A stretch of DNA of 64,000 bases from Candidatus Acetothermia bacterium (GCA_016201405.1 JACQCZ010000017.1:62001-126000); one strand, 5' to 3'. Numbered from the stretch's first letter, positions 35,949 through 64,000 are shown. Notes: generated from the letters alone by a model not told the origin. Translations and numbers: made by a program.

Positions 35949-35966
35949 AGAGGATTTTTGAAAGTG

Positions 35967-43966: not shown

Positions 43967-43981
43967 GCGAAGGGTGGTACG

Positions 43982-46226: not shown

Positions 46227-47438
46227 TCAACACGATACCCAGTTGACTCGGCTGCCCCTTTTTATCACTGCATTTCCTTCGGCTATTCTGGCAAGCGCAT
46301 TACACTCAGCAAAATTTGTGATCATGTGAGATGACTGGTTGGGGAGCGGATTGAGCCAAATCTCACCCGACTCTGAAATAGAGGTCGAACTGCGCATAAA
46401 GAACTCACGATCTGGGCTCTGCTTCACAGCTTGGGAGATTCGCCCAATCACCGGGCATGGTCTTGGATGCGCGTCTCTTTCCAGAAGATCAAGCACGCGA
46501 ATGGCGTGAAGATTGAGACAGACAAATACAGAACCGGGATTGCCCGGTATTCCCAGTACAATCTTTTTGCCGCGCATTCCAAAATAGAGCGGCTTGCCTG
46601 GCCTCTGACGTACTTGCCAGAAGATCTCCTTGACCCGCAGCTTCTGGGTTGCGCGCAGAATAAAGTCCCGGTCTCCTACTGAAATTCCGCCACAGGTAAG
46701 AACAAGATCAGAGCTTTTAAGAGCATCACTCATCGCGCCGGCTGTGGCTTCCAGGCTGTCCAGCACGGGATAAGTCTCCACCTGGGAATAGCCCAGGTTT
46801 TTGAGCCAGGAGTTCGTCAAAATCTCATCGCCATCGTAGACTTCGCCGGGTCTCAGCCTCTTACCAGGCTTGACAACCTCATCTCCGGTAGTAAGCACTG
46901 TAATTCTCGGCTCTCGAATCACTTTTACGGAGTCAACACCTGCTATTGATAGGACAGTAAGAAGACCGGGAGTCACACGCGTTCCAGCCTTGGCTAGTGG
47001 TCCCCCCACTAGGATCTCTTCTCCACGATGGCGCATATTTTCGTGTAGCGGAATCGGCCTCGAGATGATCAGAAAATGCCCTTCCACTCTTGCATCTTCT
47101 TGGCGCAGCACAGCGGTCGTCCCTTCTGGAATATGCGCCCCGGTGAAGATACGCATAGTCTCTCCAGATCCTATTCCCGGGATTTTTCCCAGGCCCCCCG
47201 CGGGAACTTCGCCTACAATACGCAGCTTGACCGTAATTTTTTCTGAAGCTACCTCAACATCTTCGGCCCGAAGGGCATAGCCATCCATTGCGCTCTGAGG
47301 AAATGGGGGGAGGTCAATCTTGGAAGTAGCATCTTGAGCCAGGACTCGTCCCAATGCCTCTTTTAATGGAACTTTGCTGGAAGGAAGCGCTGAAATAAAG
47401 CTGGCATAAAGCTCCCAAGCCTCTTGGACCGAGATCAT
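46227..47438 (-). CDS. moeA: molybdopterin molybdenumtransferase
   Basis: A 403-residue MoeA, which inserts molybdate into adenylated molybdopterin. Family motifs are LPPFPQSAMDGYALR (N-terminal), TGAHIPEGTTAVLRQED, RHRGEEILVGG as MRHRGEEIL, VLTTGDEVVKPGKRLRPGEV with the downstream DGDEIL, GGISVGDRDF, and the C-terminal GKPLYFGMRGKKIVLGIPGNP then GSVFVC. It is the last gene of the Mo operon. Its ATG begins at the base after the stop of the moaC-moaB fusion gene, indicating strong coupling. Confidence 0.93.
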   Translation of the reverse strand: MISVQEAWELYASFISALPSSKVPLKEALGRVLAQDATSKIDLPPFPQSAMDGYALRAEDVEVASEKITVKLRIVGEVPAGGLGKIPGIGSGETMRIFTGAHIPEGTTAVLRQEDARVEGHFLIISRPIPLHENMRHRGEEILVGGPLAKAGTRVTPGLLTVLSIAGVDSVKVIREPRITVLTTGDEVVKPGKRLRPGEVYDGDEILTNSWLKNLGYSQVETYPVLDSLEATAGAMSDALKSSDLVLTCGGISVGDRDFILRATQKLRVKEIFWQVRQRPGKPLYFGMRGKKIVLGIPGNPGSVFVCLNLHAIRVLDLLERDAHPRPCPVIGRISQAVKQSPDREFFMRSSTSISESGEIWLNPLPNQSSHMITNFAECNALARIAEGNAVIKRGSRVNWVSC

Positions 47439-48362
47439 TTAGCTGTACCCGTGCTTGTGCGGTATTTTTCTTAAGACTTGGAAGATGTGCAGCACGGCAG
47501 GAAAGAGGGCATCGAAAGTCTCCTTGGCTCCTTTTGTGCTGCCTGGCATAGTGATGACTAGCGTGTCGCCAATCATGCCTGCGATGCCGCGTGAGAGCAT
47601 GGAGTAGCGCGTTCTCTTCTGCCCATGGTTTCGCGCTGCCTCCATCAAGCCTGGGATCTCGCGCTCGATGAGCGGTTGCAAGGTTTCAACCGTGATGTCG
47701 GTATGAGAGAGACCCGTTCCGCCCACCGTGAGCAGCAAATCCGCCCCTTCGTTTACCAACTCTTTGACACGTTTTGCAAGAGCCTGTGCATCATCGGGCA
47801 GAATCTCATAGCTCAAAATCTCGACATTTTTGTCTGCTTCCAATCTAAATATAACTGCCTCGCCGGCTCTGTCCTCTTTCTTGCCCGATGCCACAGAATC
47901 CGAGAGCACGATCACGGCTGTCTTGATCGGAGGCTCAATCTTTTCACGATAGTCACTCTTGCCACCAGTCTTGGAGACCAGCTTCAAATAGCCGATTTCA
48001 ATCTCTTGGTTGTAGGGCTTCAGCATGTCATAGACTGTGAGGGCAGTGATACTGGCTGCCGTGAGAGCCTCCATCTCAACTCCTGTGCTGGCAATGCTTT
48101 TGACTCTGACCTGGATGCGCAGCCCACCCTTTTCAAAGTGATATTTGATCTCCACATGAAAAACAGGGATAGGGTGGCAGAGAGGAATCAGCTCCCACGT
48201 CCTTTTGGCAGCCATGATGCCAGCAGCGCGAGCAATTTCGAGCGCATCCCCTTTTTCTGTCTTGCCTTGTTCTAGGAGCGGCTGAAGCTCACCGGGCACG
48301 CTGATCCATGTCTCGGCCAGAGCCTCACGCAGAGTCTCGACTTTATGGGAGATATCTCTCAT
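47439..48362 (-). CDS. bifunctional MoaC-MoaB/Mog fusion protein
   Basis: A 307-residue fusion. Residues 1-~145 are MoaC (cyclic pyranopterin monophosphate synthase) with LEIARAAGIMAAKRT, ELIPLCHPIP, TGVEMEALTAASITALTVYD and the catalytic D-M-x-K (DMLK); the usual AVDK after it is replaced by PYNQ. Residues ~147-307 are a MoaB/Mog-type molybdopterin adenylyltransferase domain (KTAVIVLSDSVASGKKED, LLLTVGGTGLSHTDITVETL, IVTMPGS-like VITMPGSTKGAKE). Two steps of the pathway, ring formation and MPT adenylation, thus sit on one chain, an arrangement known in other bacteria. It overlaps moaE slightly and abuts moeA. Confidence 0.9.
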   Translation of the reverse strand: MRDISHKVETLREALAETWISVPGELQPLLEQGKTEKGDALEIARAAGIMAAKRTWELIPLCHPIPVFHVEIKYHFEKGGLRIQVRVKSIASTGVEMEALTAASITALTVYDMLKPYNQEIEIGYLKLVSKTGGKSDYREKIEPPIKTAVIVLSDSVASGKKEDRAGEAVIFRLEADKNVEILSYEILPDDAQALAKRVKELVNEGADLLLTVGGTGLSHTDITVETLQPLIEREIPGLMEAARNHGQKRTRYSMLSRGIAGMIGDTLVITMPGSTKGAKETFDALFPAVLHIFQVLRKIPHKHGYS

Positions 48363-48796
48363 TTCCGCTCTTTCACTGTCATGGGGACGCCAGCCTGAAA
48401 TTCGCTATCTCCCGTCTTGTAGTGCTCCTCTTTCCAGATGGGAACGCGCTTCTTTAGCTCGTCAATGCCATAGCGGGCCGCCTCGAATGCCTCAGCACGA
48501 TGCTTGGAGCGCACCACAACGTAAACACTCGGCTCGCCCAATTCGAGCCTGCCAATCCGATGTTGAAGTCTGCACTGCTTTACAGGAAATTTCTCCAAAA
48601 TCTCCAGCTCAAGCTCTTTGAGGACATTCTCAGCAATCTCGATATGGGCGTCGTATGTAATCGCTTCCACAGCCTTTCCTTCATTTTCATTACGCACGAT
48701 CCCGGAGAAGATGACAAGACCTCCACAGCTTGGATCTTCAGTCTCTGACAAGAGTCTGTTCAAATCCATCGGCTTCTTTGCAATCCAGCACCCCAT
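48359..48796 (-). CDS. moaE: molybdopterin synthase catalytic subunit
   Basis: A 145-residue MoaE, which with MoaD inserts the dithiolene sulfurs. Visible are GGLVIFSGIVRNENEGKAVE with the RNxN(D)xG region, YDAHIEIAENVLKELELEIL, QHRIGRLELGEPSVYVVVRS then KHR, and the catalytic-Lys region KRVPIWKEEHY. The start is ATG 48796, two bases after the moaD stop; a much longer open frame upstream is out-of-frame moaD sequence and is rejected. It overlaps the moaC-moaB start by a few bases. Confidence 0.93.
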   Translation of the reverse strand: MGCWIAKKPMDLNRLLSETEDPSCGGLVIFSGIVRNENEGKAVEAITYDAHIEIAENVLKELELEILEKFPVKQCRLQHRIGRLELGEPSVYVVVRSKHRAEAFEAARYGIDELKKRVPIWKEEHYKTGDSEFQAGVPMTVKERK

Positions 48797-48798
48797 CT

Positions 48799-49047
48799 TT
48801 ACCCCCCACTCACAGGCGGCAGGAGCGCAATCTCGTTGCCATCTTGGATCTGCGAATTGCTTGGAACAATCTGGTTGTCCACAGCAAAGACCACGGATTG
48901 CAGATGCGGCATCAGCTCTGGAGTTCTTTCGATCAAATATTCGGAGAGCTTTTGGAGATTGAGAATTTGTGCCGGAAGATTGAGGGAAATATCTCTTGAG
49001 CCGACCACTCGTTGAAGTCCGCCATAAAAGACGACACGAACCTGCAC
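48799..49047 (-). CDS. moaD: molybdopterin synthase sulfur carrier subunit
   Basis: An 82-residue ubiquitin-like sulfur carrier starting with GTG and ending PPVSGG, the Gly-Gly terminus that becomes a thiocarboxylate. The family's acidic/hydrophobic block EIALLPPVSGG is complete. It lies three bases after moaA and two bases before moaE. The MoeB-type activating enzyme that charges MoaD is not in the window. Confidence 0.92.
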   Translation of the reverse strand: MQVRVVFYGGLQRVVGSRDISLNLPAQILNLQKLSEYLIERTPELMPHLQSVVFAVDNQIVPSNSQIQDGNEIALLPPVSGG

Positions 49048-49050
49048 GGC

Positions 49051-50037
49051 TTAGCCCCCCAGGCTCGACATCAGCGTCTGTGTCACTTGGCCCACTTCCC
49101 AATGATGGCCTTCGGGCTTCATGTCTGCTGCCTCCAAAAAACCTGCGCGAATAGCATCCTCATCGCCAGCTCTGATAACATCGAGCAGTTTCACATGCAC
49201 GTCATAGGCCAGACAAGGACGAATCTCGCCATTGGCCGTGAGACGAAAGCGGTTGCAGGTATCGCAATATTTTTCAGAGATGGGCAGAATAAAGCCGATC
49301 ATCCCTTTGGCGCCAGGCACTTTCCAGTAACGCGCCGGGCCATTGCCGCGCCCCGGTTTGGCAGGCACAAGACCGAATTTTTCAATCAGCTCATTACGGA
49401 TTTCAGAGAGGTTGGCGAAGCCTCCCAGATGTGTGAGGTCGGCTCCCTCTCCGATTGGCATCAATTCCAAAAACCGCACCACAAACTCATTGTTCATGGT
49501 GAGATCGAGCCAATCTTCCACCTCGTCTTCGTTGAAATTCTTTAATACAAGCGTATTAATTTTGATGGGCTTTAAGCCAACTTCGGTCGCGCGCCTCAGC
49601 CCTGCCCATACAGTCTCCAAGAGCCCAAAGCGTGTGATTCTTGTAAAGCGGTCGGGTCTTAATGAATCTAAGCTCACATTAATCCAGTCCAAGCCACTAG
49701 TGGCAAGCTCCTCAGCCAGCCGCTCCAGAAGGAGGCCGTTGGTGGTGAGCGAAAGCTCTTTCAAGTCCGTCTCATTGCGAAGCATTTTGATGAGAACAGG
49801 CAGATCGCGTCTGACGAGCGGCTCTCCACCGGTGAGCCTGGCGCGGTCGATTCCTAGGCGATTGGCGATTTGGACCGTGTGGACGATCTCTTCAAAGCTG
49901 AGGATCTCCTCTTTCTTATGAAACTGAAGGCCATGGAGAGGCATACAATAATGACAGCGCAGATTGCAGCGGTCTGTCACCGAGATTCGCAGGTAATTGA
50001 CCCTGCGTCCGTAGCGATCCTTCAGGAATTCCATCAT
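49051..50037 (-). CDS. moaA: GTP 3',8-cyclase
   Basis: A 328-residue radical-SAM MoaA catalysing the first molybdopterin step (GTP to 3',8-cyclo-GTP). The N-terminal [4Fe-4S] motif CNLRCHYC occupies residues ~24-31, RLTGGEPLVRRDLPVLIKML is present, and the C-terminal cluster is YCDTCNRFRLTANGEIRPCL. It ends LGG, the required C-terminal Gly-Gly. Its ATG overlaps the mobA stop. Confidence 0.95.
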   Translation of the reverse strand: MMEFLKDRYGRRVNYLRISVTDRCNLRCHYCMPLHGLQFHKKEEILSFEEIVHTVQIANRLGIDRARLTGGEPLVRRDLPVLIKMLRNETDLKELSLTTNGLLLERLAEELATSGLDWINVSLDSLRPDRFTRITRFGLLETVWAGLRRATEVGLKPIKINTLVLKNFNEDEVEDWLDLTMNNEFVVRFLELMPIGEGADLTHLGGFANLSEIRNELIEKFGLVPAKPGRGNGPARYWKVPGAKGMIGFILPISEKYCDTCNRFRLTANGEIRPCLAYDVHVKLLDVIRAGDEDAIRAGFLEAADMKPEGHHWEVGQVTQTLMSSLGG

Positions 50038-50681
50038 TGAGAATTATCAGACATATTGTGTCCACTTTCAATAGCGTTGAGCAGCCGCTGAAGCTCATCG
50101 GGTCTATTCACGTCTGTGAAGTTCTCTCGAATCCCCCATCGTTGCCAGACTGAAGGAGTGAGGGTCGCAATCCCCTCTGGGTTTTTTTCGATCCAGCGAT
50201 AGAGAGAGAGCTCACCACTCTCAAAAGCATCTTTTAGCTCTGAGTAGAGCGATTTATGATAAAGAGCGCAAGTCACTTGCAGATTCTCTTTATCAATGGG
50301 AATGAGCGCTCTGGGCTGAGGTTGCAGCCCTTGAAGATATTCTTGCATCTTCGACAAAAAATCGCTTGTCAATAATGGAAAATCTACCGCAAGCAACAGA
50401 CCATAATCACCGCTCATCGCCTGCAATCCACCGATCAGCGCCCCCAGCGGGCCTGAGTTTGGATTCTCATCGATGAGAAAGCGATGCTCTGATCCCAAGA
50501 GCTCTATTATTTTTTGTTGATCTTCGCTTTTTGCGACTAGAATGAGTACTTCAGCAGCAACTTTTGTCGCGGCCTGAAAGGTTCTTTCGATGAGAGGCTG
50601 CCCCTGAAGTTTAAGAAATCGCTTGTCTTGCCCCATGCGCTGGGACTCTCCGCCTGCCAGAATGAGTGCTGAGACACGCAT
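50034..50681 (-). CDS. mobA: molybdenum cofactor guanylyltransferase
   Basis: A 215-residue nucleotidyltransferase. Its LILAGGESQRMGQDKRFLKL motif is the MobA GTP-binding loop, with NSGPLGALIGGLQAM and LAVDFPLLTSDFL following. MobA joins GMP to Mo-MPT, whereas molybdenum hydroxylases usually use the CMP form made by MocA (also in the operon), so the operon supplies both dinucleotide routes. It overlaps moaA by ATGA and lies three bases after the DJ-1/PfpI gene. Confidence 0.88.
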   Translation of the reverse strand: MRVSALILAGGESQRMGQDKRFLKLQGQPLIERTFQAATKVAAEVLILVAKSEDQQKIIELLGSEHRFLIDENPNSGPLGALIGGLQAMSGDYGLLLAVDFPLLTSDFLSKMQEYLQGLQPQPRALIPIDKENLQVTCALYHKSLYSELKDAFESGELSLYRWIEKNPEGIATLTPSVWQRWGIRENFTDVNRPDELQRLLNAIESGHNMSDNSQ

Positions 50682-50684
50682 CGA

Positions 50685-51287
50685 TCAGCCTGCTCTTAGC
50701 TTCGGATTCCAAGGATATTCAATATAGCGTGCCGTTTCTGCAGCGGCCCTCTTCCCCAAAATCTTGGATACGACATAGAATGACATATCGATCCCAGCCG
50801 AGACGCCTGCCGATAAGATAATCTTTCCGTTGTCTACCACGCGCTCTTTATCCAGGACCTTAGCATCGGGAGCGAGCTCTTTGAGCATATCTAGTGCCAT
50901 AAAATGAGTTGTCGCTTTTAAGCCTTTGAGCAGCCCTGCCTCGGCCAAGACCAATGCTCCCGTGCAGACAGAGAGCAGATATTCACAACTCTCTGATTTC
51001 TCGCGTATCCAGTTTAGAACGTTCTCATTCTGTAGAAGCTTCCGCGTTCCGAATCCCCCAGGCACAACAATGATATCGGGCTCGGGGCATTGATCAATCA
51101 GATAACGCGGGTTGATGCTGAGAAGATTTCTGGCCAGCACGGGCTTTGGTCTCTCTGCGACTGTGTAGACGTTGAAAGGCTCTAAATTATCACGTTTGCC
51201 AGTTACGGAAAAGACTTCAAATGGACCGCAAAAATCAAGAACCTCAACCTCGTCAAAGATGAGAATGGCCACATTACGACTCTTCAT
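50685..51287 (-). CDS. DJ-1/PfpI family protein
   Basis: A 200-residue class I glutamine amidotransferase-like protein. The nucleophile elbow is LLSVCTGALVLAEAGLLKGL with Cys near residue 107, and an N-terminal FDEVEVLDFCGPFEVFSV segment and VVPGGFG are present. The sequence is closest to the isonitrile hydratase/AraC-associated subgroup (ATTHFMALDML, VVDNGKIILSAGVSAGIDMS). There is no HTH domain, so it is not a regulator. Its presence inside a Mo-cofactor operon is unusual. The ATG overlaps the mocA stop by ATGA and AAAAGGAGC supports the start. Its role is unknown; hydration of an isonitrile or protection against glycation are family options. Confidence 0.85.
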   Translation of the reverse strand: MKSRNVAILIFDEVEVLDFCGPFEVFSVTGKRDNLEPFNVYTVAERPKPVLARNLLSINPRYLIDQCPEPDIIVVPGGFGTRKLLQNENVLNWIREKSESCEYLLSVCTGALVLAEAGLLKGLKATTHFMALDMLKELAPDAKVLDKERVVDNGKIILSAGVSAGIDMSFYVVSKILGKRAAAETARYIEYPWNPKLRAG

Positions 51288-51913
51288 CCCAAGCTCCTTT
51301 TATCAAAGTCTCTTTTGATCAGCTCATACTCTTCTGGTGTGTCCATATCCCACTGGGTCACTTCTTCTCCAGATTCTAGAAGAATCTTTTCGGAATCTGC
51401 CCAGTGAGTTTTGACCAGACTCATCGCACTCGTCTCGCCCTGCAGCTTCATTACTTCTGGCCAAAGCTCACGGGGAAATAAAACTGGATGCCCCTTTTCG
51501 TCGTTCAGAACTGGAAACGTCAATTTACCCAGCTTAGCAAATTGCTCAATGACTCGATTGATAAGCGCACTTGTCATGAGGGGCATATCTCCAGGGAGGA
51601 AGAGCGCACCCAAAGCATTGCTTGGCATCTTTTTGATGGCTGTTCGAACAGAAGAAGCCCTTCCGGTCGGCCAATTCGGATTCTCGATCACACTCAGTTT
51701 TGAATGACGCCCAAGCTCTTCCAATGCTCGAATGATCTTTGGTCTCTCAAATCCAGTGATCAAAAAGATGCTCTCAAGCTGAGACTCAAGCATCGCTCTG
51801 GTCGTGTGATAAATTACAGCATGCCCGCAGAGAGGCATCAAAAGCTTGTTTCCGATCTCAAAACGGCTGCTATCTCCGGCGGCCAAAACTACACCGGGAA
51901 TCTTATCGCTCAT
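51284..51913 (-). CDS. mocA: MocA-like molybdenum cofactor cytidylyltransferase
   Basis: A 209-residue nucleotidyltransferase related to MobA but of the MocA type. The N-terminal loop is VVLAAGDSSRFEIGNKLLMP, and NPNWPTGRASSVRTAI, FLPGDMPLMTSALINRVI and FPVLNDEKGHPVLFPRELWP follow. MocA makes the cytosine dinucleotide form used by xanthine-oxidase-family enzymes, fitting the coxSLM-type genes upstream. The start (ATG 51913, or 51916) lies inside the end of the xdhC-like gene; the longer open frame upstream is rejected because the family begins here. It overlaps the DJ-1/PfpI gene by ATGA. Confidence 0.85.
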   Translation of the reverse strand: MSDKIPGVVLAAGDSSRFEIGNKLLMPLCGHAVIYHTTRAMLESQLESIFLITGFERPKIIRALEELGRHSKLSVIENPNWPTGRASSVRTAIKKMPSNALGALFLPGDMPLMTSALINRVIEQFAKLGKLTFPVLNDEKGHPVLFPRELWPEVMKLQGETSAMSLVKTHWADSEKILLESGEEVTQWDMDTPEEYELIKRDFDKRSLG

Positions 51914-53027
51914 CATGGATTGGAGAATTTCGCTCGCGTAAAAAGCCGCCGAGCCGCCCATTCTGGTAGGCCAGAATCTCGCTGAGGATGCTGAGTGCAA
52001 TCTCTTCAGGGGTCTCTGCGCCGAGGTCAAGCCCAATTGGGGCATGCAATCTTGCTAATGTTTTTTTACTTGGCTTGCCTATCTCTTTCTCGATCTCGGC
52101 CAGCAACTCTTCCGTCCGTGATCGCGGACCAATTTGCCCAATGTACTGCACATCACTTTTGATGACATTCTTCAAAATCTCAAGATCATAGAGATAGTTG
52201 TGCGTCATAATAACAACAAACATTCTGGAATCGAGTGAAACTTTGTCTGGGAATTCTGTAGGATGGGCATAGATGAGCTTCTCGATATCAGGAAATCTTT
52301 CTCTTCTTAAATATTCCGCACGGTGATCGACAACTGTGACTTGGAACCCCAATTGGAGCGCCATCTGGGCGAGCGGCTGGGCATCAAAACCGGCTCCAAA
52401 GATGACAAGTCTTTCTGACGGCTCTATTCTCTCAGCATAGATTCGGATCTTCTCTTTCCCAAGAGAGAGTGACTTTGTAAAGGTTCTCGTTTTTTCGGGA
52501 AACTTTTCTAGCTCTGCAAAGATGGCTTCATCCCATTTTGATGGGTCTGAAGTCATGCCAACAAGTTTTTCTGGAATAAAGAGCCAGTGCTTCCCAGTCG
52601 ACAAGTCGGTTGACTGACTCTCGATTGCCACAGCGAGAGTGCAAGAGACTTCATTCTGCAGCAATCCAAGCAGCGATGAATAAAGATGAGTTTCTGATTT
52701 TTTTTGTACGACAGGTTCAATAAAAACCTCAATGGTGCCCCGGCAACCTAGACCCGTGCCGGCGATGATGTCCATCTCTTCTCTCGTATCAAAGTGAAGA
52801 AGGTTTGATTTACCCGATGCGATAACTCTCTTTGCGGTGGAGATGACCTCGTCTTCAAGACAGCCTGCGCTAACAGCACCAAACTTCTCTGACTTGGTAA
52901 CAAGAAGACGAGCGCCTGGTTTGCGATAGGTCGAGCCGCTGGTGGCAACGACGGTCGCCAACGCGATGGGAGTCTTGGGCTGAAGAAGCGAATCTAATCG
53001 TGCGAAGATTTGGTGCTTCTCATACAT
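51903..53027 (-). CDS. XdhC/CoxI family Mo-hydroxylase maturation protein
   Basis: A 374-residue protein that in related systems binds the molybdenum cofactor, helps its sulfuration and passes it to the enzyme. The N-terminal XdhC domain has LATVVATSGSTYRKPGARLL and GAVSAGCLEDEVISTAKRV then GTGLGCRG. The C-terminal Rossmann domain has VIFGAGFDAQPLAQMALQLG and the VMTHNYLYDLEILKN, YIGQIGPRSRTEELLAEIEK and APIGLDLGAETPEEIALSIL blocks. All are complete. It overlaps both coxM (8 bases) and mocA, consistent with one translationally coupled operon. Confidence 0.92.
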   Translation of the reverse strand: MYEKHQIFARLDSLLQPKTPIALATVVATSGSTYRKPGARLLVTKSEKFGAVSAGCLEDEVISTAKRVIASGKSNLLHFDTREEMDIIAGTGLGCRGTIEVFIEPVVQKKSETHLYSSLLGLLQNEVSCTLAVAIESQSTDLSTGKHWLFIPEKLVGMTSDPSKWDEAIFAELEKFPEKTRTFTKSLSLGKEKIRIYAERIEPSERLVIFGAGFDAQPLAQMALQLGFQVTVVDHRAEYLRRERFPDIEKLIYAHPTEFPDKVSLDSRMFVVIMTHNYLYDLEILKNVIKSDVQYIGQIGPRSRTEELLAEIEKEIGKPSKKTLARLHAPIGLDLGAETPEEIALSILSEILAYQNGRLGGFLRERNSPIHDER

Positions 53028-54066
53028 TACTGCCCATTGTAGCGAGTTCTGTGAGCGCTCGCTTTAGATAGACTGGAGCCATCCGCTTGCGATAGAAGAG
53101 ATGAAAGTCAGTATTGTCAAGCGGACGGGCAGGATTAAAGACAGATTGAGATGCAGCTTCAATCTGATTCTCTGTCAGCCTCTTCCCAGTCAGAATATTC
53201 TGAGCCTCTGCCATCTCAAAGGGACAGGAGCCAATACCACCCAGAACTACTTTTGCATGTTCCACTGTGCCATCCTTTGCCTGCTTCAGTGCCACGGCAA
53301 CTCCAAGCACAGGGAAATCAAACGACTCACGCCGTCGCAGCTTCCAATAGGTGCTCTTGATGCCGTCCGATGGCGGCAATTGAATCTCAGTGAGGATCTC
53401 ATCATGAGCTTTGCTGAGATAGAACATGCCATCGTCGTTGTACAAGTCTTTTACTGAAATGACACGCTCACCTTTGCTGCCGATGAGCTTTAGTTTTGCG
53501 CCAAGTGCAATTAACATCGGTGCGCTATCGGTCGATGAGACGGCCCAGCAGCGTGAGCTTCCTGGTGCCACCCGGCATGGGACTCCACTCTGGTTGAGCT
53601 TTGAGTCTTGCAGAACGGGCCAGCCCTTGCCGCTTGGAGCCTTCATACACCATCCAATCGCTTGTCGCCAGTGATGAGTCTGATCGTAATAATTGCACCT
53701 CGTATCGAGACAGAGATTGCCGCCAATCGTGCCCATGTTTCGTAGTATCGGTGTCGATACGGCTCCTGCTGCTTTGGCAAGTCCTGCATAGCTCTCCTGA
53801 ACAACAGAGTGACTACTGACCTCCGTAAGAGTCGCACTTGCGCCCAGTGTGAGCCCAGATTTTGCACTGCCCGAAATCCTATCCAGATCATCAATTTTGC
53901 GCAGTCCGATGAGTGTCTTGGGAAGGAACTGGCGGCGCTTCATCTTCGGGTAGATATCGGTTCCGCCAGCTACAATCATGGCCGCAGGTCCTTGATCTGC
54001 CAGAATCTTGCAGGCATCATTGATGTTTTGAGGGGTAAGGTATTGAAACTTAGGGAGTCGTAGCAT
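53020..54066 (-). CDS. FAD-binding subunit of a 4-hydroxybenzoyl-CoA reductase-like molybdenum hydroxylase
   Basis: A 348-residue FAD subunit (CoxM/CutM fold). The FAD motif AMIVAGGTDIYPKMKRRQ is near residue 30 and TIGGNLCLDTRCNYYDQTHH follows. Four Cys at positions 124, 140, 164 and 173 match the spacing of the [4Fe-4S] ligands known in the 4-hydroxybenzoyl-CoA reductase beta subunit (first-to-second 16, third-to-fourth 9). The second-to-third gap is 24 instead of 8, an insertion of about 16 residues. VAPGSSRCWAVSSTDSAP is another hallmark of that subgroup. The subunit would carry electrons between FAD, the extra cluster and the 2Fe-2S subunit. It lies three bases after coxL. Confidence 0.88.
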   Translation of the reverse strand: MLRLPKFQYLTPQNINDACKILADQGPAAMIVAGGTDIYPKMKRRQFLPKTLIGLRKIDDLDRISGSAKSGLTLGASATLTEVSSHSVVQESYAGLAKAAGAVSTPILRNMGTIGGNLCLDTRCNYYDQTHHWRQAIGWCMKAPSGKGWPVLQDSKLNQSGVPCRVAPGSSRCWAVSSTDSAPMLIALGAKLKLIGSKGERVISVKDLYNDDGMFYLSKAHDEILTEIQLPPSDGIKSTYWKLRRRESFDFPVLGVAVALKQAKDGTVEHAKVVLGGIGSCPFEMAEAQNILTGKRLTENQIEAASQSVFNPARPLDNTDFHLFYRKRMAPVYLKRALTELATMGSNV

Positions 54067-54069
54067 GAT

Positions 54070-56454
54070 CTATCTTTTCCACTCGGCCGGAACTTCCACT
54101 TTGACGGGCTCCGGAAAGTTGTAGCTGGGGATGCCCTTGGGGCCGACTCGCGGCGGATTACCCTTCTTCTTCTCTTCCAGAGCTTTGAGGACCTTTTCTG
54201 GAGTGATCGGAATCTCGTCAATGTGGATTCCCAGCGCATTATAGACGGCATTGGCCACGGCAGGAATGACCGGGCTGAGTGGGCCTTGCCCTGCTTCCTT
54301 GGCACCAAACGGGCCATTTGGCTCATCGGTCTCGACCAGAATTGTCTCAACCGGAGGCATCTCTTTGAAAGTGAGGCTCTTATAGTCCAGAAGCGATGGA
54401 ATTTTGTGCAAATTTTTCCTGAAATCTTGTTCTTCCATCAAGACCTCGCCAAGCCCCATATAGACGCTGCCTTCGACTTGGCCAATGACCGAGAGAGGAT
54501 TGAGTGCCCGGCCAATGTCATGCGCGATCCAGATCTTTTCCACCTTGACCTCGCCCGTCTCTGCATCACAATCAACTTCTGCCACACAGGTCGAAAAGCT
54601 GTAAGCGGGTGATGGCCCAACGCCCGAGCCTTTGTACTGGCCTATTTTGGGGGCGGGCTTGTAGCTCCCTACGGCGCCTATGGGTCCAAATTTGGCTTCA
54701 GCCAATTGTGCTGCATCTTTGAATGAAAGCTTGTTTTCAGGGTTTTCTTTATCAAAAATGACTCGGTCTCGTGCTTCTAATTTCTCAATGGAGACATCCA
54801 TCTCTTCGGCTGCCGCCTCGAAGATCGGCTCTCGCACTTTCATTGCGGCATCGATCGCTGCGTGCCCCATCATCATGGTCACGCGGCTTGAATAGGTCCC
54901 CAGATCGATCGGCGTCAGATCCGTATCTGCAGTCACAAGGCTGACATCCGTTTGGTAGAGTCCGAGGACTTCTGCTACCAGTGAGGCCAGCACGGTGTTT
55001 GAGCCCTGGCCAATATCAATCGCTCCTGAAAATGCCGTCACCAAGCCAGAGCGGTCGACCTGAATCTGGACTTCAGACTGAGGCAGCTCGTTCCAGTAAA
55101 TAGGAAGCCCAGCGCCGCAAATATAAGTGCTGAGCGCAAAGCCGATTCCTTTGCCTTTGGGAAGCTTTCCAAATTTTGTCTTCCAGCCTGATGCCTTGAG
55201 TACTTCCTCGGTGCACTCTTTTGAGCCATTGCTGTTGATCTTGAGCCAGTTGACCGTGACATGGTTTGGTCCGGTCATGTTCTTCTGCCGGATAGCGATG
55301 GGGTCGAGCTTCAGATCCTCGGCCAGTCTGTCGAGCTGGCGCTCGATCGCAAATCGCGGCTGTGGAGTGCCGTGAGCTCGCTTTGGTCCGCAGGCAGGTT
55401 TATTGGTGAAAGCCCGAATCGCCTGGAATCTGTAATTGGGAATTTTGTATGTGACGGTTTGTAATGCTCCTGTGTAATATATGCTCGCGGGCCCGTATGA
55501 GCCATAGGCGCCGCCGTCAAGAAAAGACTTGAAGTGCATTGCGGTGATTTTCCCATCTTTCGTCACACCCGTTTTGACCCACATCAGAACCGGGTGGCGC
55601 CCACGATGGGCATAGAAGACCTCTTCACGGGTCAGCGTGATCTTGATGGGTCTGCCAATCAGCATACTCAGCTTGCAGGCGCAGATTTCGTGTGAGAAGG
55701 GATCATCTTTGCCGCCAAAGCCGCCGCCAACAGGAGCAGCGACCACCCGAATCTTGTGATCCGGAAGCTCTAAGACTTTGGCCAACGCCCGATGCACATA
55801 GTGAGGGGTCTGTGTTGCGCTCCAAATCGTCATCTTCTCCTCTGATGGATTCCAGGATGCAACGGCAGAGTGCTGTTCCATGGGAAGGTGCGTATTTCCC
55901 TGATAGAAATAGACATCTTCTCGGATGTGATCGGCCTCTCCAAACCCGCCATCCACATCTCCAAAATCGATCGAGACAATTTTGTGAAGATTGCCCTCCG
56001 GCCCATAGTCATGAATGCGAGGCTCTTTGATATTGATCGCATCTTCAAGCGACATGACGGCCTTGAGTGGCTCATATTGGACGTCAATGAGCAAGAGAGC
56101 CTCTTCGGCAGTCTCTTCATCCAGCGCTGCAACCGCAACAACGGGCTCGCCGACATAGCGAACTCTGTCCAATGCCAATGCATGCTCGTCCTGGCTGGTC
56201 GGCATGATTCCGAATTGTATTGGAAGATCTCTTCCAGTAATCACTCCCAAAACGCCAGGCAGCTTTTCGGCTCTGCTCACATCGATCTTTTTGATGAGCG
56301 CGTGGGGGTGAATGCTGGGAAGAATTTTCCCATAGACCATGCGGGGCAGACGAAGATCATCGGCATATTTGGTGCGACCAGTGCATTTATCTCCGGCATC
56401 CACTCGTGGCAAGGACTTTCCAATGACTGAGAATTCGCTCTTTGCTTTGGCCAC
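54070..56454 (-). CDS. molybdenum-binding large subunit of a 4-hydroxybenzoyl-CoA reductase-like hydroxylase
   Basis: A 794-residue molybdopterin subunit of the xanthine oxidase family. Mo-pterin contacts are APVGGGFGGKDDPFSHEICA, YLDGGAYGSYG-like FLDGGAYGSYGPASIYYTGA, TNKPACGPKRAHGTPQPRFA and SGAIDIGQGSNTVLASLVAE. The proposed catalytic Glu is in GPFGAKEAGQGPLSP near residue 745. REEVFYAHRGRHPV and TNKPACGPKRAHG resemble HcrA rather than CO dehydrogenase, whose CSFR-type active-site loop is absent. The enzyme probably hydroxylates or dehydroxylates an aromatic CoA ester or heterocycle; the substrate is inferred, not read. Confidence 0.9.
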   Translation of the reverse strand: MAKAKSEFSVIGKSLPRVDAGDKCTGRTKYADDLRLPRMVYGKILPSIHPHALIKKIDVSRAEKLPGVLGVITGRDLPIQFGIMPTSQDEHALALDRVRYVGEPVVAVAALDEETAEEALLLIDVQYEPLKAVMSLEDAINIKEPRIHDYGPEGNLHKIVSIDFGDVDGGFGEADHIREDVYFYQGNTHLPMEQHSAVASWNPSEEKMTIWSATQTPHYVHRALAKVLELPDHKIRVVAAPVGGGFGGKDDPFSHEICACKLSMLIGRPIKITLTREEVFYAHRGRHPVLMWVKTGVTKDGKITAMHFKSFLDGGAYGSYGPASIYYTGALQTVTYKIPNYRFQAIRAFTNKPACGPKRAHGTPQPRFAIERQLDRLAEDLKLDPIAIRQKNMTGPNHVTVNWLKINSNGSKECTEEVLKASGWKTKFGKLPKGKGIGFALSTYICGAGLPIYWNELPQSEVQIQVDRSGLVTAFSGAIDIGQGSNTVLASLVAEVLGLYQTDVSLVTADTDLTPIDLGTYSSRVTMMMGHAAIDAAMKVREPIFEAAAEEMDVSIEKLEARDRVIFDKENPENKLSFKDAAQLAEAKFGPIGAVGSYKPAPKIGQYKGSGVGPSPAYSFSTCVAEVDCDAETGEVKVEKIWIAHDIGRALNPLSVIGQVEGSVYMGLGEVLMEEQDFRKNLHKIPSLLDYKSLTFKEMPPVETILVETDEPNGPFGAKEAGQGPLSPVIPAVANAVYNALGIHIDEIPITPEKVLKALEEKKKGNPPRVGPKGIPSYNFPEPVKVEVPAEWKR

Positions 56455-56458
56455 GCTC

Positions 56459-56947
56459 TTACTCCTTTGAAGCGCCCAGCCGGGAGGCTGTCAATTCGAC
56501 GGCTTCAATAATCTTCCAGTAGCCAGTGCAGCGGCAGAGATTTCCAGAGAGCGCCTCTTTGATCTCATCTTGGCTTGGATTCTTATTCTCATCAAGCAAT
56601 GCTTTGGAGCTCAGCAGCATTCCCGGAGTGCAGTAGCCACACTGAGCCGCTTGCAGCTCGATAAATGCCTGCTGAATGGGGTGAAGCTTTCCGTTCTGCT
56701 CAAGTCCTTCAATGGTGGTGATCTTCTGCCCCTGGATCTCAACTCCTAATGTGAGGCATGAAAGAATGGGCTGGTCATTGATCAGCACTGTGCAGGTCCC
56801 ACACTCACCCACTTCACAGCCGTGCTTCGTTCCGGTCAGGTCTAAATCTTCACGCAGAATCTCTAATAGGGTCTTGTTGACTGTAACAGCAACCTCATAA
56901 CGCTCGCCATTGATTTGAAGAGTGATCAGAGTTTTTTGAGATTCCAA
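56459..56947 (-). CDS. [2Fe-2S] subunit of the molybdenum hydroxylase
   Basis: A 162-residue small iron-sulfur subunit. The plant-type cluster motif is CEVGECGTCTVL, followed by C in PILSCLTL. The second cluster motif is CGYCTPGM with CRCTGYWKIIEAVE near the C-terminus. The start is set at a TTG (56947) behind AAGGGGGG: a promoter inside the longer open frame (56984-57013) would start transcription near 56977, so codons further upstream cannot be translated. It is the first gene of the twelve-gene run and passes electrons from the Mo site. Confidence 0.9.
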   Translation of the reverse strand: MESQKTLITLQINGERYEVAVTVNKTLLEILREDLDLTGTKHGCEVGECGTCTVLINDQPILSCLTLGVEIQGQKITTIEGLEQNGKLHPIQQAFIELQAAQCGYCTPGMLLSSKALLDENKNPSQDEIKEALSGNLCRCTGYWKIIEAVELTASRLGASKE

Positions 56948-56983
56948 CAGGCCCCCCTTAGTCTTCGCTGTGCCGACCGCACC

Positions 56984-57013
56984 AGTATAGAACATAATCA
57001 AGGAGCCTTACAA
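56984..57013 (-). promoter_or_regulatory. promoter of the molybdenum hydroxylase/cofactor operon
   Basis: Minus-strand TTGTAA (57008-57013), 18 bases, TATACT (56984-56989). It lies in the short gap between the giant regulator gene and the coxS-type gene. No obvious palindrome overlaps it. Confidence 0.55.
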
Positions 57014-57056: not shown

Positions 57057-60000
57057 TTAGCTGAAGTTGGGAAATTTACGCAATTGCTCTACAAGCCCCT
57101 GATATAAAGCCTCGCTCTCTAGAGCGGAAGTGAGCTTCTTATGAAGAGTTCTTGCGCTGCGCGGATGAATCTCCAGGCGGTCGATCAGCGTATCTCTTGC
57201 ACCCTCATTGCTGCCTAAATCTGCGATCAGCAAAAGACCTTGAAAGAGCTTGGAGATAGGCAGATTGCTGTTGGCAAAGATCGTCCCTGTGCGGTCGGCA
57301 AAGGTCTTTTTGCAATTCGTGCAGAGATAGCGCTTCTCTCTTGAGCTGCTTACATGGCCATGAATTCGCACCTTTTGCCCCTGGCAATAGGGACAAATCA
57401 CTCCATTGGCCCAACGGATCCGCCGCAGCAGCTCATAGCATTCCGGGTCGTCGCGCTGAATAGATCGCACAGAATCCTCCAGACTCTTGGCAATCTCGCT
57501 GTGAATAGGGACATTCTTGAGGTAACTCGAGCGCAGCCGCTCATTGCATATTTTTGCAGCCTGCTCCATCAGAATGTGATAGGCTTTGCGGAGCGAGGCC
57601 TTCGCCTCCTCGGGGCGGTCCATGCCCGACAAGACCTGATAGCTGCGAAACCAGACCCACGGTCCATACAAAGTGTGGTTCAGCACGCCCAAGATCTCTA
57701 AAGCCATTTCTGAGCTCTGAAAGGCGCCTGTGAGATTCCCCAGAATTAGATGGCTGTGACTCTCATCCATGTGAAGAAGCATCTCTTCACCCTTTTGTTT
57801 CATGGCGCGGCTGATCACCAATGCTTCTCGATAATGATCTAAGGCGAGTTGTGGGTCTCCAGAATCATGCAGCATCTCTCCTACGTTTCTCAGCACCACA
57901 CCCATGTTCCTTTGATCGTTGTTCTGCCGATGCAGGCGAATGGCCTCTCGCCCTATTTGAATAGCCTGTTGCATCTCGCCAAGACGCCAATAGATTATGC
58001 TCAGATTTCCCAATGCCAGTGCTTCGCCCTGCTGTGAGCGAACTTCACAAAATGTGGTCAAAGAGTCGCTCAGGCACTCTTGTGCCTTTTTGTGCTCACC
58101 CAAAAACCAATATACCGCCCCCAGATTATTGAGATCGCTGGCACAAGCTCTCCGGTCACCGATCTCTTGGTGAATGCGAGCGGCCTCTCTCATATGTTCG
58201 ATGGCAACTTCAAATTGCCCGATATTGTGAGAGGCCAGGCCTAGATTTCCTAAAGAGCGGGCCTCCCCCCGGCGGTCTCCAATCTTGGCCGCTAGCTCCC
58301 GAACCTCGCTCAAGATCTTAATGGCCTCAGAATAATTCTCCTGCGTCCAGTGCATAGCTCCTCTAGCCAGCAGTGTCAGCGCCTTGCCGGGCAAGTCGTT
58401 GAGTCTCTCCCGTAATGCCAGCGCTTCGCTAAGCTGTTTCTCAGCCCTTTCAAAATCTCCTCTGCGCCACGATATACCAGCGAGATAATGCAGAGTTTCG
58501 GCGCGACTCTTATCATCGCCAAGCCTGATTTGCAGCTTGTATTCATCGTTCAGATAACTTAGAGCTGAGTCATAATCGGTCGTATACCAATAAATGAGAG
58601 CGATGCTGTGGAGGGAGCGGGCTTCCAGGGGTTCATCCGATATTGTCTTAGCGATTTCTAGAGCTTTATAACTCTCAAGCTGGGCCTCGGGGTACTTCGT
58701 CATGTCAATACAATATTTGGCTCTGAGGAGATGGGCATGTGCACTTTTAGCAGGATCTTGCAGACTCGCAGAAACCGCCAATACATCCTCGATATCTTTA
58801 GCTTGTGCCTCGCGATTGGCCAGGATCTCATGGAGCTTTATCCGCTCACAAAGAACCTCAAATTTCATTTCGTCTAGATGAGAATTGGCCTTGTCTTCTG
58901 AGGTTAAGCGGGCTAGATGCTCCAATGCCCTTTCGGCGAGCGAGAGCCCTTCTGAATTGCGAAAGCCGCGAACTGCGCGTTTCAATGAGGGAAGAATGTC
59001 ACGGAGTGCCTGCTCATGCAGACCGGCCAATCCATAGTGATAGGCAAAGAGCTCATAAGGGCGCTGATCGCCGTCTTCCAGGGAGTCTTCTAGAGATGCA
59101 GCCCAAATTCCGTGTAGATATGCGCGGCGATCTTGAGGAATCTCTTGATAGACCACCTCACGGATTTTGTCATGGGCGAAGTTGTAGCCCCCAGGATCTG
59201 AGAAGATTACCTGCATCTTCTCGAGGCTCTCTAGCTTTTGTCTGAGATCCTGCTCATTCTCGCCCAGATCCAATTGCTGACAGAACGTGGAAAGAAGTTT
59301 CGGGTCAGCATTCGACCCGATCACACTGATGGCTTGTGACAACGTGAGTAGTGGTGGATCCAGCCGGGCGATGCGCGTCCGGATGACTTGCTGAATCTCT
59401 TTGGGCAGGCGGCCTTCTCTCTGGTTGTCAATTTGGCTAATGTGATGCGCCCATCCTCCATCCGGAGCCATCTCGATCCTCTTCTCTTCAAACATAGATT
59501 GAAGCAAAAAGACGACAAAGAGCGGGTTGCCTCCGCTCTCTCTATGCAGAAAGCGCGCTAAGAGATCCAGATGAGGGGTCTGCGGAGCCGTTTTTTGCAA
59601 TAAATCATCCATCTCTATCCGCGTCAGGCGGTTCAATAAAAGACTTTTTGTATTCTTCTGGCGCGTTGGATGATCGGCATAACGGACCAGACGCCTGACT
59701 GGATGGGATTCATGCACTTCCTCACCTCGATAGGTGGCCATCAAAAGGACGCGGCTTTGGGACAGGCGTGCGCTGGCATAGTCCATCCAGTCAAGAATGG
59801 AAGAGTCTGCCCATTGGAGATCATCCAGAAAGAGCAAGATAGGAGACTGAGTCTCGCTAAGCCGTAAAAGAAGCTGAGTGACTGCCTCGAAAAAACGCAA
59901 CCGCTCAAGCTCTGGACCGAGCGTAGGAATAACTTCTGGGGTTTGGATCAGACCTTCAACACCATGCAGCCAGGGGCGCAGAACAGATAGGCTAAACGCA

Positions 60001-61109
60001 GGTAGCTCCTCAAGCTGCAGTCGTGAGAGCTGGGCAAGCTGATTTCTGATGGCCATCATCAGCGCCTGATAGGGTGTGAGGCTGGCCGACTCGCTGCATC
60101 GCCCTTGAAGCACTGAAAAACCGAATTCCTGTCGAGCGATTTGGATTACCTCTTGAGCCAGCCGGGTCTTGCCAATGCCCGCCTCTCCTCCAATTAGCAC
60201 CAGTCTTCCGCTTCGCTCTCGCGTCTTTTGAAGGCACTCCAGCAAGCTTTCCCATTGGTGTTGACGCCCAGTGAAGGGTAAGCGGCTGAATGAATGGTGG
60301 ATGGGATGACGCACCAAAGCAGGCGGGCGGTATTCCGGATCGACACCAGGGACATAGCCAGCGGAAATCTGCTCTCTCAGCCTGCGGGTCTGAGAGTCTG
60401 GAAGTCGGTCAAACTCTCTTTCTAAGAAGCTCTCGCAGTCTTGATAAATCTTGAGCGCCTCGTTGGAGTTTCCCATCAAATAGCAGTAGAGCATCGCTTG
60501 CCGGTAGAGGTCTTCGCGAACGGGAGATGCGAGTATTGCCTCTCGGCACCGCTCTAGGGCTTGACGATAGTGCCCAAGTTTCGCCAGACAGTCGGCCAGC
60601 TCTAGCAAAATAGAGACATGGATCTCATTCCAGCGCTGGGAATCGGTAAAGGCCCACGCTTCGTACCGATCTTCAGGCAGATATTCACCTTGAAAGAGAC
60701 CAAGAGCCTTCTCAAACCACTCAGCAGCCTGTTCGAGCCTCTTCTCATGCAGAAAACTTCTGGCTCTTTTGGCCGTGTCAAGCAGCTCAAGAATGTCGAT
60801 CGCACAATTGGGCTGCGGATTAAAGCGATAGCCTCCTGGGCAGGTCTGCACATATTGATAAGTCGAGCCCGCATGGGGCTCCAGGACTTGACGAAGAGAA
60901 TGAACCCGTGCGCGCAAGAATTGGAGGGCTTTCTCAAGATTGACGTCAGGCCAGATATGCTCAATTAGCTGTTCATGCAAAAAGACGCGTCCAGGCTCAG
61001 AGAGCAGAATCTTGAGCAAAATCTTGGCTTGCTCTGAACCCCATTCCTCAATGACAACACCATCTCGATAGACAGTAAGCCCCCCAAGAAGTCTGATGCG
61101 GAGTCCCAT
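57057..61109 (-). CDS. giant BTAD/SARP-ATPase-TPR regulator with C-terminal IS1595-type zinc-ribbon/HTH domain
   Basis: A 1350-residue regulator. Residues 1-~100 form a winged-helix DNA-binding domain (MGLRIRLLGGLTVYRDGVVI to PGGYRFNP). Residues ~105-250 are a bacterial transcriptional activation (BTAD) helical domain. From ~280 comes an AAA/STAND-type ATPase: Walker A GGEAGIGKTR at 307-316, Walker B ILLFLDDLQW at 424-433. TPR helices run from about 700 to 1190. The last 121 residues (1230-1350) begin RIRWANGVICPYC and continue YLCTNCKKTFADRTGTIF, a CxxC-x20-CxxC zinc ribbon (Cys 1239, 1242, 1263, 1266) like the N-terminus of IS1595-family transposases, then NLPISKLFQGLLLI and a helix-turn-helix. 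No DDE catalytic domain follows. It sits directly upstream of the Mo operon, on the same strand. Confidence 0.88.
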   Translation of the reverse strand: MGLRIRLLGGLTVYRDGVVIEEWGSEQAKILLKILLSEPGRVFLHEQLIEHIWPDVNLEKALQFLRARVHSLRQVLEPHAGSTYQYVQTCPGGYRFNPQPNCAIDILELLDTAKRARSFLHEKRLEQAAEWFEKALGLFQGEYLPEDRYEAWAFTDSQRWNEIHVSILLELADCLAKLGHYRQALERCREAILASPVREDLYRQAMLYCYLMGNSNEALKIYQDCESFLEREFDRLPDSQTRRLREQISAGYVPGVDPEYRPPALVRHPIHHSFSRLPFTGRQHQWESLLECLQKTRERSGRLVLIGGEAGIGKTRLAQEVIQIARQEFGFSVLQGRCSESASLTPYQALMMAIRNQLAQLSRLQLEELPAFSLSVLRPWLHGVEGLIQTPEVIPTLGPELERLRFFEAVTQLLLRLSETQSPILLFLDDLQWADSSILDWMDYASARLSQSRVLLMATYRGEEVHESHPVRRLVRYADHPTRQKNTKSLLLNRLTRIEMDDLLQKTAPQTPHLDLLARFLHRESGGNPLFVVFLLQSMFEEKRIEMAPDGGWAHHISQIDNQREGRLPKEIQQVIRTRIARLDPPLLTLSQAISVIGSNADPKLLSTFCQQLDLGENEQDLRQKLESLEKMQVIFSDPGGYNFAHDKIREVVYQEIPQDRRAYLHGIWAASLEDSLEDGDQRPYELFAYHYGLAGLHEQALRDILPSLKRAVRGFRNSEGLSLAERALEHLARLTSEDKANSHLDEMKFEVLCERIKLHEILANREAQAKDIEDVLAVSASLQDPAKSAHAHLLRAKYCIDMTKYPEAQLESYKALEIAKTISDEPLEARSLHSIALIYWYTTDYDSALSYLNDEYKLQIRLGDDKSRAETLHYLAGISWRRGDFERAEKQLSEALALRERLNDLPGKALTLLARGAMHWTQENYSEAIKILSEVRELAAKIGDRRGEARSLGNLGLASHNIGQFEVAIEHMREAARIHQEIGDRRACASDLNNLGAVYWFLGEHKKAQECLSDSLTTFCEVRSQQGEALALGNLSIIYWRLGEMQQAIQIGREAIRLHRQNNDQRNMGVVLRNVGEMLHDSGDPQLALDHYREALVISRAMKQKGEEMLLHMDESHSHLILGNLTGAFQSSEMALEILGVLNHTLYGPWVWFRSYQVLSGMDRPEEAKASLRKAYHILMEQAAKICNERLRSSYLKNVPIHSEIAKSLEDSVRSIQRDDPECYELLRRIRWANGVICPYCQGQKVRIHGHVSSSREKRYLCTNCKKTFADRTGTIFANSNLPISKLFQGLLLIADLGSNEGARDTLIDRLEIHPRSARTLHKKLTSALESEALYQGLVEQLRKFPNFS

Positions 61110-61202: not shown

Positions 61203-61236
61203 AGAAAGAGCAGATTGCCTCGAATCTGCTCTTTCT
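61203..61236 (-). terminator. hairpin terminator after the small secreted protein gene
   Basis: AGAAAGAGCAGATT (61203-61216) pairs perfectly over 14 bases with AATCTGCTCTTTCT (61223-61236) across a six-base loop. It separates the secreted protein gene from the regulator promoter. Confidence 0.75.
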
Positions 61237-63592: not shown

Positions 63593-64000
63593 TTACACGC
63601 CGACTTCTGAGGCAGAGTTGGGACATTTGGGGCAAGGGTTTTTTGTTTGTATTGTCTCGGAACTTATTCTTTCAGTTATTTCGTCCAAATCGTGTAGAGA
63701 ATGCTCCCAAAATCTTAAGACTTTCCATCCCTGTTCTATCAAAATGCCATTTATCCTTTTATCTCTTAAAATATTTGAATCGATTTTGTTCGACCAGTAC
63801 TTCCGGTTCGACTTTGGCCTTCGATGACATTGAGGGCATCCATGCCAAAAGCACCCGTCTACAAAAACCGCAACTTTATCTGCTTCAAAAATGAAATCGG
63901 GGCAACCTGGAACCTCTTTCATGTGCATTCTCCATCCTCGAAGTTTCGCCCTCATCAAAGCGCATCTTAGTCTTCGTTCAGTGGAGACGTTACCCGTTGA
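63593..64000 (-). CDS. Vsr-like very short patch repair endonuclease, N-terminus cut by window end
   Basis: The frame is open to the window edge. It reads STGNVSTERRLRCALMRAKL then RGWRMHMKEVPGCPDFIF, KVAVFVDGCFWHGCPQCHRR, YWSNKIDSNILRDKRINGIL and GWKVLRFWEHSL. These match the Vsr/patch-repair nuclease family (restriction-endonuclease fold) with the PD-x(n) core and the DGCFWHGC zinc/DNA segment. A ~20-residue C-terminal tail with CPKC is unusual. Vsr nicks T:G mismatches arising at methylated cytosines and usually travels with a cytosine methyltransferase. None is visible inside the window, so partners may lie beyond 64000. The region is AT-richer than the epimerase gene. Confidence 0.85.
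   Translation of the reverse strand, partial: STGNVSTERRLRCALMRAKLRGWRMHMKEVPGCPDFIFEADKVAVFVDGCFWHGCPQCHRRPKSNRKYWSNKIDSNILRDKRINGILIEQGWKVLRFWEHSLHDLDEITERISSETIQTKNPCPKCPNSASEVGV

Follow-up and report, generated by a model that had tools for sequence, protein, structure and literature searches.

Can a bacterial transcription regulator take up the DNA-recognition part of a transposase and keep it for its own purposes? The question is raised by one gene in a 64,000-nucleotide stretch of a Candidatus Acetothermia genome (GCA_016201405.1, JACQCZ010000017.1:62001-126000; the whole stretch is called the window and its genome G000). The gene encodes a protein that is built like a regulator of the Streptomyces antibiotic regulatory protein (SARP) type and ends in an IS1595-type zinc ribbon followed by a helix-turn-helix (HTH) region. 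An initial annotation, made from the window alone, had read this as the capture of a transposase module by a regulator. That reading is borne out here by the same fusion in three distant relatives and by trees that support a single origin.

Results

The regulator ends in a transposase-derived module

The reading frame is continuous, as first described, and runs uninterrupted on the minus strand from an ATG at 61109 to a stop at 57057, giving 1350 residues. The protein is laid out as follows.

57057-61109, minus strand: fused regulator gene, 1350 residues (SARP-type winged HTH, BTAD, AAA NTPase, TPRs, IS1595-type zinc ribbon plus HTH module)
60816-61109, minus strand: N-terminal OmpR-type winged helix, residues 1-98
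60366-60797, minus strand: bacterial transcriptional activation domain (BTAD), residues 105-248
59742-60278, minus strand: AAA_16 nucleoside triphosphatase (NTPase), residues 278-456
57480-58829, minus strand: tetratricopeptide repeat (TPR) superhelix, about residues 761-1210
57060-57464, minus strand: transposase-derived C-terminal module, residues 1216-1350, about 135 residues
57303-57452, minus strand: IS1595-type zinc ribbon, residues 1220-1269 (C1239, C1242, C1263, C1266), PF12760 above cut-off
57078-57257, minus strand: helical, HTH-like part, diverged from transposases

All the domains that had been named on the N-terminal side were recovered by Pfam above the cut-offs: Trans_reg_C at residues 31-96 (36.2 bits; cut-off 26.2), BTAD (82.8 bits; cut-off 22.1), AAA_16 (94.4 bits; cut-off 32.6) and many TPR matches, with TPR_12 at 149.4 bits. 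The winged helix also aligned by phmmer to the AfsR structures 8k60, 8jke and 8hvr. The NTPase contains a Walker A motif (GGEAGIGKTR) and a Walker B motif (LLFLDD), both conserved in the relatives described below, and is followed by the TPRs. Large SARPs have been described as OBD-BTAD-NTPase-TPR proteins (PMC12692060). The window protein has the features of the AfsR type, an OmpR-type winged helix followed by a BTAD and an NTPase followed by TPRs, in the same order, and its residues 3-330 align to 8k60 and 8jke. It differs from the AfsR-type proteins in carrying the extra C-terminal transposase-type module and in belonging to Bipolaricaulota rather than to an actinomycete; it misses the NCBIfam AfsR equivalog cut-off (161 bits against 1430). 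On its domain content, the protein is a predicted large SARP-type transcription activator with a transposase-derived module at its C-terminus.

The Zn_ribbon_IS1595 profile (PF12760; cut-off 25.4 bits) matched at 34.9 bits in the whole protein and at 38.6 bits when the region was taken alone. The four cysteines are spaced C1239-x2-C1242-x20-C1263-x2-C1266, which is the CxxC-x20-CxxC ribbon first reported. The IS1595 ribbon profile also covers the stretch YELLRRIRW, which precedes the first two cysteines, and without the beginning of this stretch the score is 24.4 bits, just under the cut-off. Because the ribbon match needs this stretch, the start of the module was put at about residue 1216 (nucleotide 57464); the extent of 57060-57422 given in the initial annotation was slightly short. 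A profile of the module aligned with the N-termini of IS1595 transposases over positions 3-122 of 132, covering both ribbon and HTH (best per-genome E-value 6.5e-22), in agreement with the IS1595-type identity first proposed.

No DDE domain (PF12762) was found in the fused protein by Pfam, and the gene ends where PF12762 would begin. A free-standing IS1595 transposase encoded by another genome of this order has its ribbon at residues 10-60 and its DDE domain at residues 130-271. The module therefore corresponds to the part that precedes the DDE domain, and the nuclease is absent, as had been claimed. With IS1595 (ISXO2-like) transposases the window protein shares the ribbon, and the HTH region behind it aligns with theirs, although Trp and Arg residues conserved in 30-33 of 33 transposases are lost from it; the homology spans about 120 residues. 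The protein differs from them in lacking PF12762, in being single copy and in having changed positions that are invariant or near-invariant in transposases. The module occurs once in its own genome and has no mobile-element context, and no convincing pair of terminal inverted repeats was found flanking it. NCBIfam IS1 matches in the fused protein are weak and below cut-off.

AlphaFold2 modeling with the window sequence and three relatives gave a β ribbon followed by four helices (about residues 1285-1298, 1302-1312, 1316-1332 and 1334-1344), with a predicted local distance difference test score (pLDDT) of 86.2 and a predicted template modeling score (pTM) of 0.77. The remaining four models of that run scored 64-72, and the arrangement is only moderately sure. 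In a longer construct the module is a separate unit past the TPR helices, joined to them by a low-confidence link.

The fusion arose once in one order of Bipolaricaulota

The search for other proteins with the same domain order, proposed with the initial annotation, was productive. Querying 150 genomes with the last 131 residues of the protein identified three further proteins of 1351-1401 residues with the module at the C-terminus and the same domain order, all in genomes of the same order. They are found in G013 (JACOSB010000066.1, Candidatus Acetothermia), G004 (JALSGO010000128.1, Candidatus Bipolaricaulota) and G008 (JAJCYT010000034.1, Candidatus Fraserbacteria) and are 44%, 35% and 33% identical end to end to the window protein, respectively. 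All four fusions match PF12760. In a pattern scan of contigs, a single-sequence query gave nothing and an alignment query recovered the three named relatives. The fusion is present in 4 of the 19 searched genomes of the order, several of the others being incomplete, and the four regulators are spread over three families.

When the module was removed and 40 SARP-type proteins of the order were placed in a maximum-likelihood tree, the four fusions formed one clade with 100/100 support. The four modules likewise form one clade with 100/100 support in a tree that includes 33 IS1595 transposase N-termini. The internal branching is the same in both trees, (G004,(G013,(G000,G008))), with only moderate support for the G000-G008 grouping in each. 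Such matching trees of body and module are expected from a single fusion and joint inheritance. The module joined once, before the four regulators diverged, and has been co-inherited and retained since. The site of joining is marked by the unfused paralogues, which end at query residue ~1200-1212 with the same TPR-end sequence (SFLKN...REI), directly ahead of the module. G004 is the first to branch even though it shares a family with G000, which means that transfer, or duplication with loss, took part.

The fused modules lie on a long branch apart from all sampled transposases. An insertion sequence of this kind had been suggested as worth seeking in the same genome; that genome (90.8% complete) contains no other match over the PF12760 cut-off, and an IS1595 element within it as a recent donor was rejected on that basis. 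A 732-residue frame below the cut-off (C8) was rejected as a transposase, its sequence being that of a PriA-like helicase. The G008 and G013 genomes also contain a free-standing IS1595 transposase.

The module profile was also run over 389 genomes, 377 genomes from the phylum of a BTAD-rich 9.2-Mb genome and 400 genomes from the phylum of another BTAD-rich genome (~1,160 in total), with about 10 candidates scored per genome. Among the matches listed, no module-bearing frame longer than 575 residues lay outside this order, SARP-rich phyla included; a rare fusion elsewhere may have escaped the search. Nearly all matches were frames of 280-350 residues, the size of a transposase, or shorter fragments; frames of 495-540 residues occurred in G941, G415, G400 and G1110. 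In the 150 genomes, the matches listed for PF12760 were likewise frames of transposase size, apart from a few fragments and the four fusions. No relatives were found in viral contigs, and plasmid relatives of the module were almost all annotated IS1595 transposases. SARP/BTAD-NTPase-TPR proteins are more numerous in G013 (15 matches from 76 candidates) and G008 (9) than in other genomes of the order (paralogue loci L059, L071, L109-L119 and L121-L123).

Two frames were rejected as further fusions. A 430-residue open frame in G293 contains a normal 324-residue transposase, and a 560-residue frame in G387, with a ribbon and HTH resembling those of IS1595, gives no Pfam match and does not belong to the SARPs. 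The latter protein (L161, 1617-3299) carries the ribbon and HTH at its N-terminus, followed by a degenerate-looking DDE-like region (VELDSTHRSGG), and may be one more domesticated IS1595 transposase.

Conservation within the protein peaks in the zinc ribbon

Pairwise identity among the four fusions is highest in the zinc ribbon (49-63%), compared with 29-55% in the winged helix, 32-45% in the BTAD, 34-49% in the NTPase and 28-42% in the TPRs. Twenty-one of the 57 ribbon positions and all four cysteines are invariant across fusions that are only 33-44% identical overall, and the cysteines are also invariant in 33 of 33 transposases. RW, CPxC, CxxC, F, T-x-F and the hydrophobic core positions of the transposases are kept in all four fusions. 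After the ribbon, the four fusions share a D-R pair, where V is found in 22 and T in 25 of the 33 transposases. Taken with the residues lost from the HTH half (see below), the pattern is that of a part freed from working with a DDE domain yet retained for some other purpose.

Discussion

A proposed signal-gated activator with a second DNA contact

What would the retained module do? We propose that it provides a second DNA contact in a signal-gated SARP activator, and give this reading a probability of roughly 0.6. A signal received by the TPR/NTPase part would switch the protein. As in AfsR, the winged helix and BTAD at the N-terminus would bind both promoter DNA and RNA polymerase, and the module at the other end would make a second nucleic-acid contact, anchoring or bridging the DNA. 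A precedent is InsA of IS1, a zinc finger plus HTH that lacks a DDE domain and acts as a DNA-binding repressor (PMC12428005). Both are the DNA-binding part of a transposase without the nuclease, and regulatory use has been shown for InsA (PMC12428005). InsA differs in being small and free-standing and in controlling its own element, whereas the present module is joined to a host regulator.

Several observations weigh against this proposal. The HTH half is only 27-41% identical among the fusions, no better than the TPRs, and both rank near the bottom of the named segments in conservation. A Trp present in 33 of 33 transposases is replaced by Leu1288 in all four fusions, a second Trp (near residue 1320; 30 of 33 transposases) is lost in all four, and an Arg found in all 33 transposases (near residue 1327) survives in the G004 fusion but not in the other three. 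Fold comparison against the PDB was weak, with no match at E ≤ 0.001 and a Dof DNA-binding zinc finger as the best (E = 0.077). The gene neighbourhood of the fused regulator is not conserved, and no shared DNA motif was found upstream of the candidate targets described below (16-mers, 2 mismatches). Heptamer repeats with an 11-nucleotide period near these candidates occur at about chance level, except for one upstream of the transporter, and gave nothing clear.

The main rival takes the module to be a protein-contact or structural element now, serving in RNA polymerase contact, oligomerisation or autoinhibition of the TPR/NTPase part rather than in reading DNA. It is an unlikely explanation, though the strongest of the alternatives. 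The ribbon core was kept while the HTH drifted and the transposase-conserved Trp and Arg residues were lost, the new D-R pair is common to all four fusions, and some of the weak fold matches are ribbon subunits of RNA polymerase II. On the other hand, the entire ribbon and helical region is kept in all four proteins, not the ribbon alone; recognition helices would be expected to change with a changed target; and in the analogous IS1 protein the zinc finger and HTH are DNA-binding (PMC12428005).

It is improbable that the module still recognises IS1595 ends and that the fusion represses or controls IS1595 elements. InsA does repress IS1 by competing for its ends (PMC12428005), and the free-standing IS1595 transposases in the genomes of G008 and G013 speak for this reading. 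The window genome, however, retains the ribbon without a second PF12760 match over the cut-off, and the long branch separates the fused modules from the sampled transposases. Equally improbable is a functionless, decaying relic of a chance fusion: the weakly conserved HTH half would fit decay, but the invariant cysteines and ribbon positions, in the most conserved segment of the protein, disfavour it. Although the genomes were assembled from metagenomes, an artefact of assembly or gene prediction is refuted by the same junction in four separate, diverged assemblies, with an uninterrupted frame and even base composition; the assembly join about which the initial annotation had cautioned is thereby ruled out by the three relatives, and the lack of ribbon profile similarity that it had also named is not what was found.

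If the module does supply a second DNA contact, these proteins might correspond, in bacteria, to the transcription factors that arose in eukaryotes by host-transposase fusion. Such an NTPase regulator, gated by a signal, would read DNA at both ends, its second site derived from a transposon-end recognition module and kept in at least three families for host regulation. We see the chances of this broader view as evenly balanced. In eukaryotes there are well-documented cases of host regulators that have captured the DNA-binding domain of a transposase, and host-transposase fusions are a recognised class, exemplified by F-box proteins with a Tc1/mariner HTH (PMC12062965). These likewise join a host domain to a transposase DNA-binding domain; in the present case the setting is bacterial, the host protein is a SARP/NTPase regulator and the donor is IS1595. 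The limited body of open-access literature searched held no description of such a protein from bacteria; the parts are of known kinds, and it is their combination that was not met there. The capture can be placed on gene trees and has been kept in several families, and the unfused sister proteins and free-standing transposases provide clean controls. The effect of the module is therefore directly testable by comparing DNA targets with and without it.

Genomic surroundings

The following features surround the regulator gene.

61203-61236, no strand: perfect 14-bp inverted repeat with a 6-nucleotide loop, located after the stop of the upstream gene and before the start of the regulator
56459-56947, minus strand: iron-sulphur (gamma) subunit of a 4-hydroxybenzoyl-CoA-reductase-like molybdenum (Mo) enzyme, next gene downstream
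54070-56454, minus strand: Mo-binding (alpha) subunit, HcrA-like (TIGR03194, 844.8 bits, under the cut-off of 994.55)
53020-54066, minus strand: flavin adenine dinucleotide (beta) subunit, HcrB-like (TIGR03195, 257.1 bits, under the cut-off of 404.55)
41696-46028, plus strand: oligopeptide-type ABC transporter (substrate-binding protein and two permeases), closest relative directly downstream of the fused regulator in G008

The hairpin at 61203-61236 is probably a terminator, which suggests a separate transcription unit beginning with the regulator gene. The gamma, alpha and beta subunits all score below the cut-offs of TIGR03193-03195, and the gamma subunit has a likely TTG start at 56947, after AAGGGGGG. 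They belong to a same-strand array (46227-57001) that encodes the Mo enzyme, an XdhC-type factor, a MocA-like enzyme, a DJ-1/PfpI protein, MobA, MoaA, MoaE, a MoaC/MoaB fusion and MoeA. The initial annotation placed the regulator directly upstream of a Mo-enzyme operon; this is true in the window, but the adjacency is not conserved and says little about function. Complete hcrC-hcrA-hcrB clusters are present in G004 (64-76% identity) and G013 (62-67%) on a different contig from the fused regulator, and the Mo enzyme was accordingly rejected as a conserved target operon. The G004 hcr cluster adjoins the same epimerase-like gene that is found on the far side of the regulator in the window; the window regulator therefore sits within an otherwise shared neighbourhood.

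The fused regulator of G008 is followed immediately by the first gene of an ABC transporter operon. In the window genome, the best match to this operon (59, 75 and 73% for the three proteins) is found 11-15 kb away from the fused regulator. Aromatic-acid metabolism and this transporter are at most reasonable first candidate targets. The window also encodes, at 35958-37610, a CoA ligase nearest to the benzoate-CoA ligase subfamily (TIGR02262, 373.6 bits against a cut-off of 375.25); a benzoate-CoA-ligase-like protein near an Hcr-like enzyme fits aromatic-acid metabolism.

Beside the fused regulator of G004, a protein kinase fused to a LanC-like domain (L039, 8107-10125) adjoins an ABC exporter, and the locus is possibly a lanthipeptide locus. 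At 63593-63958 the window encodes a Vsr-type mismatch endonuclease (TIGR00632, 103.7 bits, over the cut-off).

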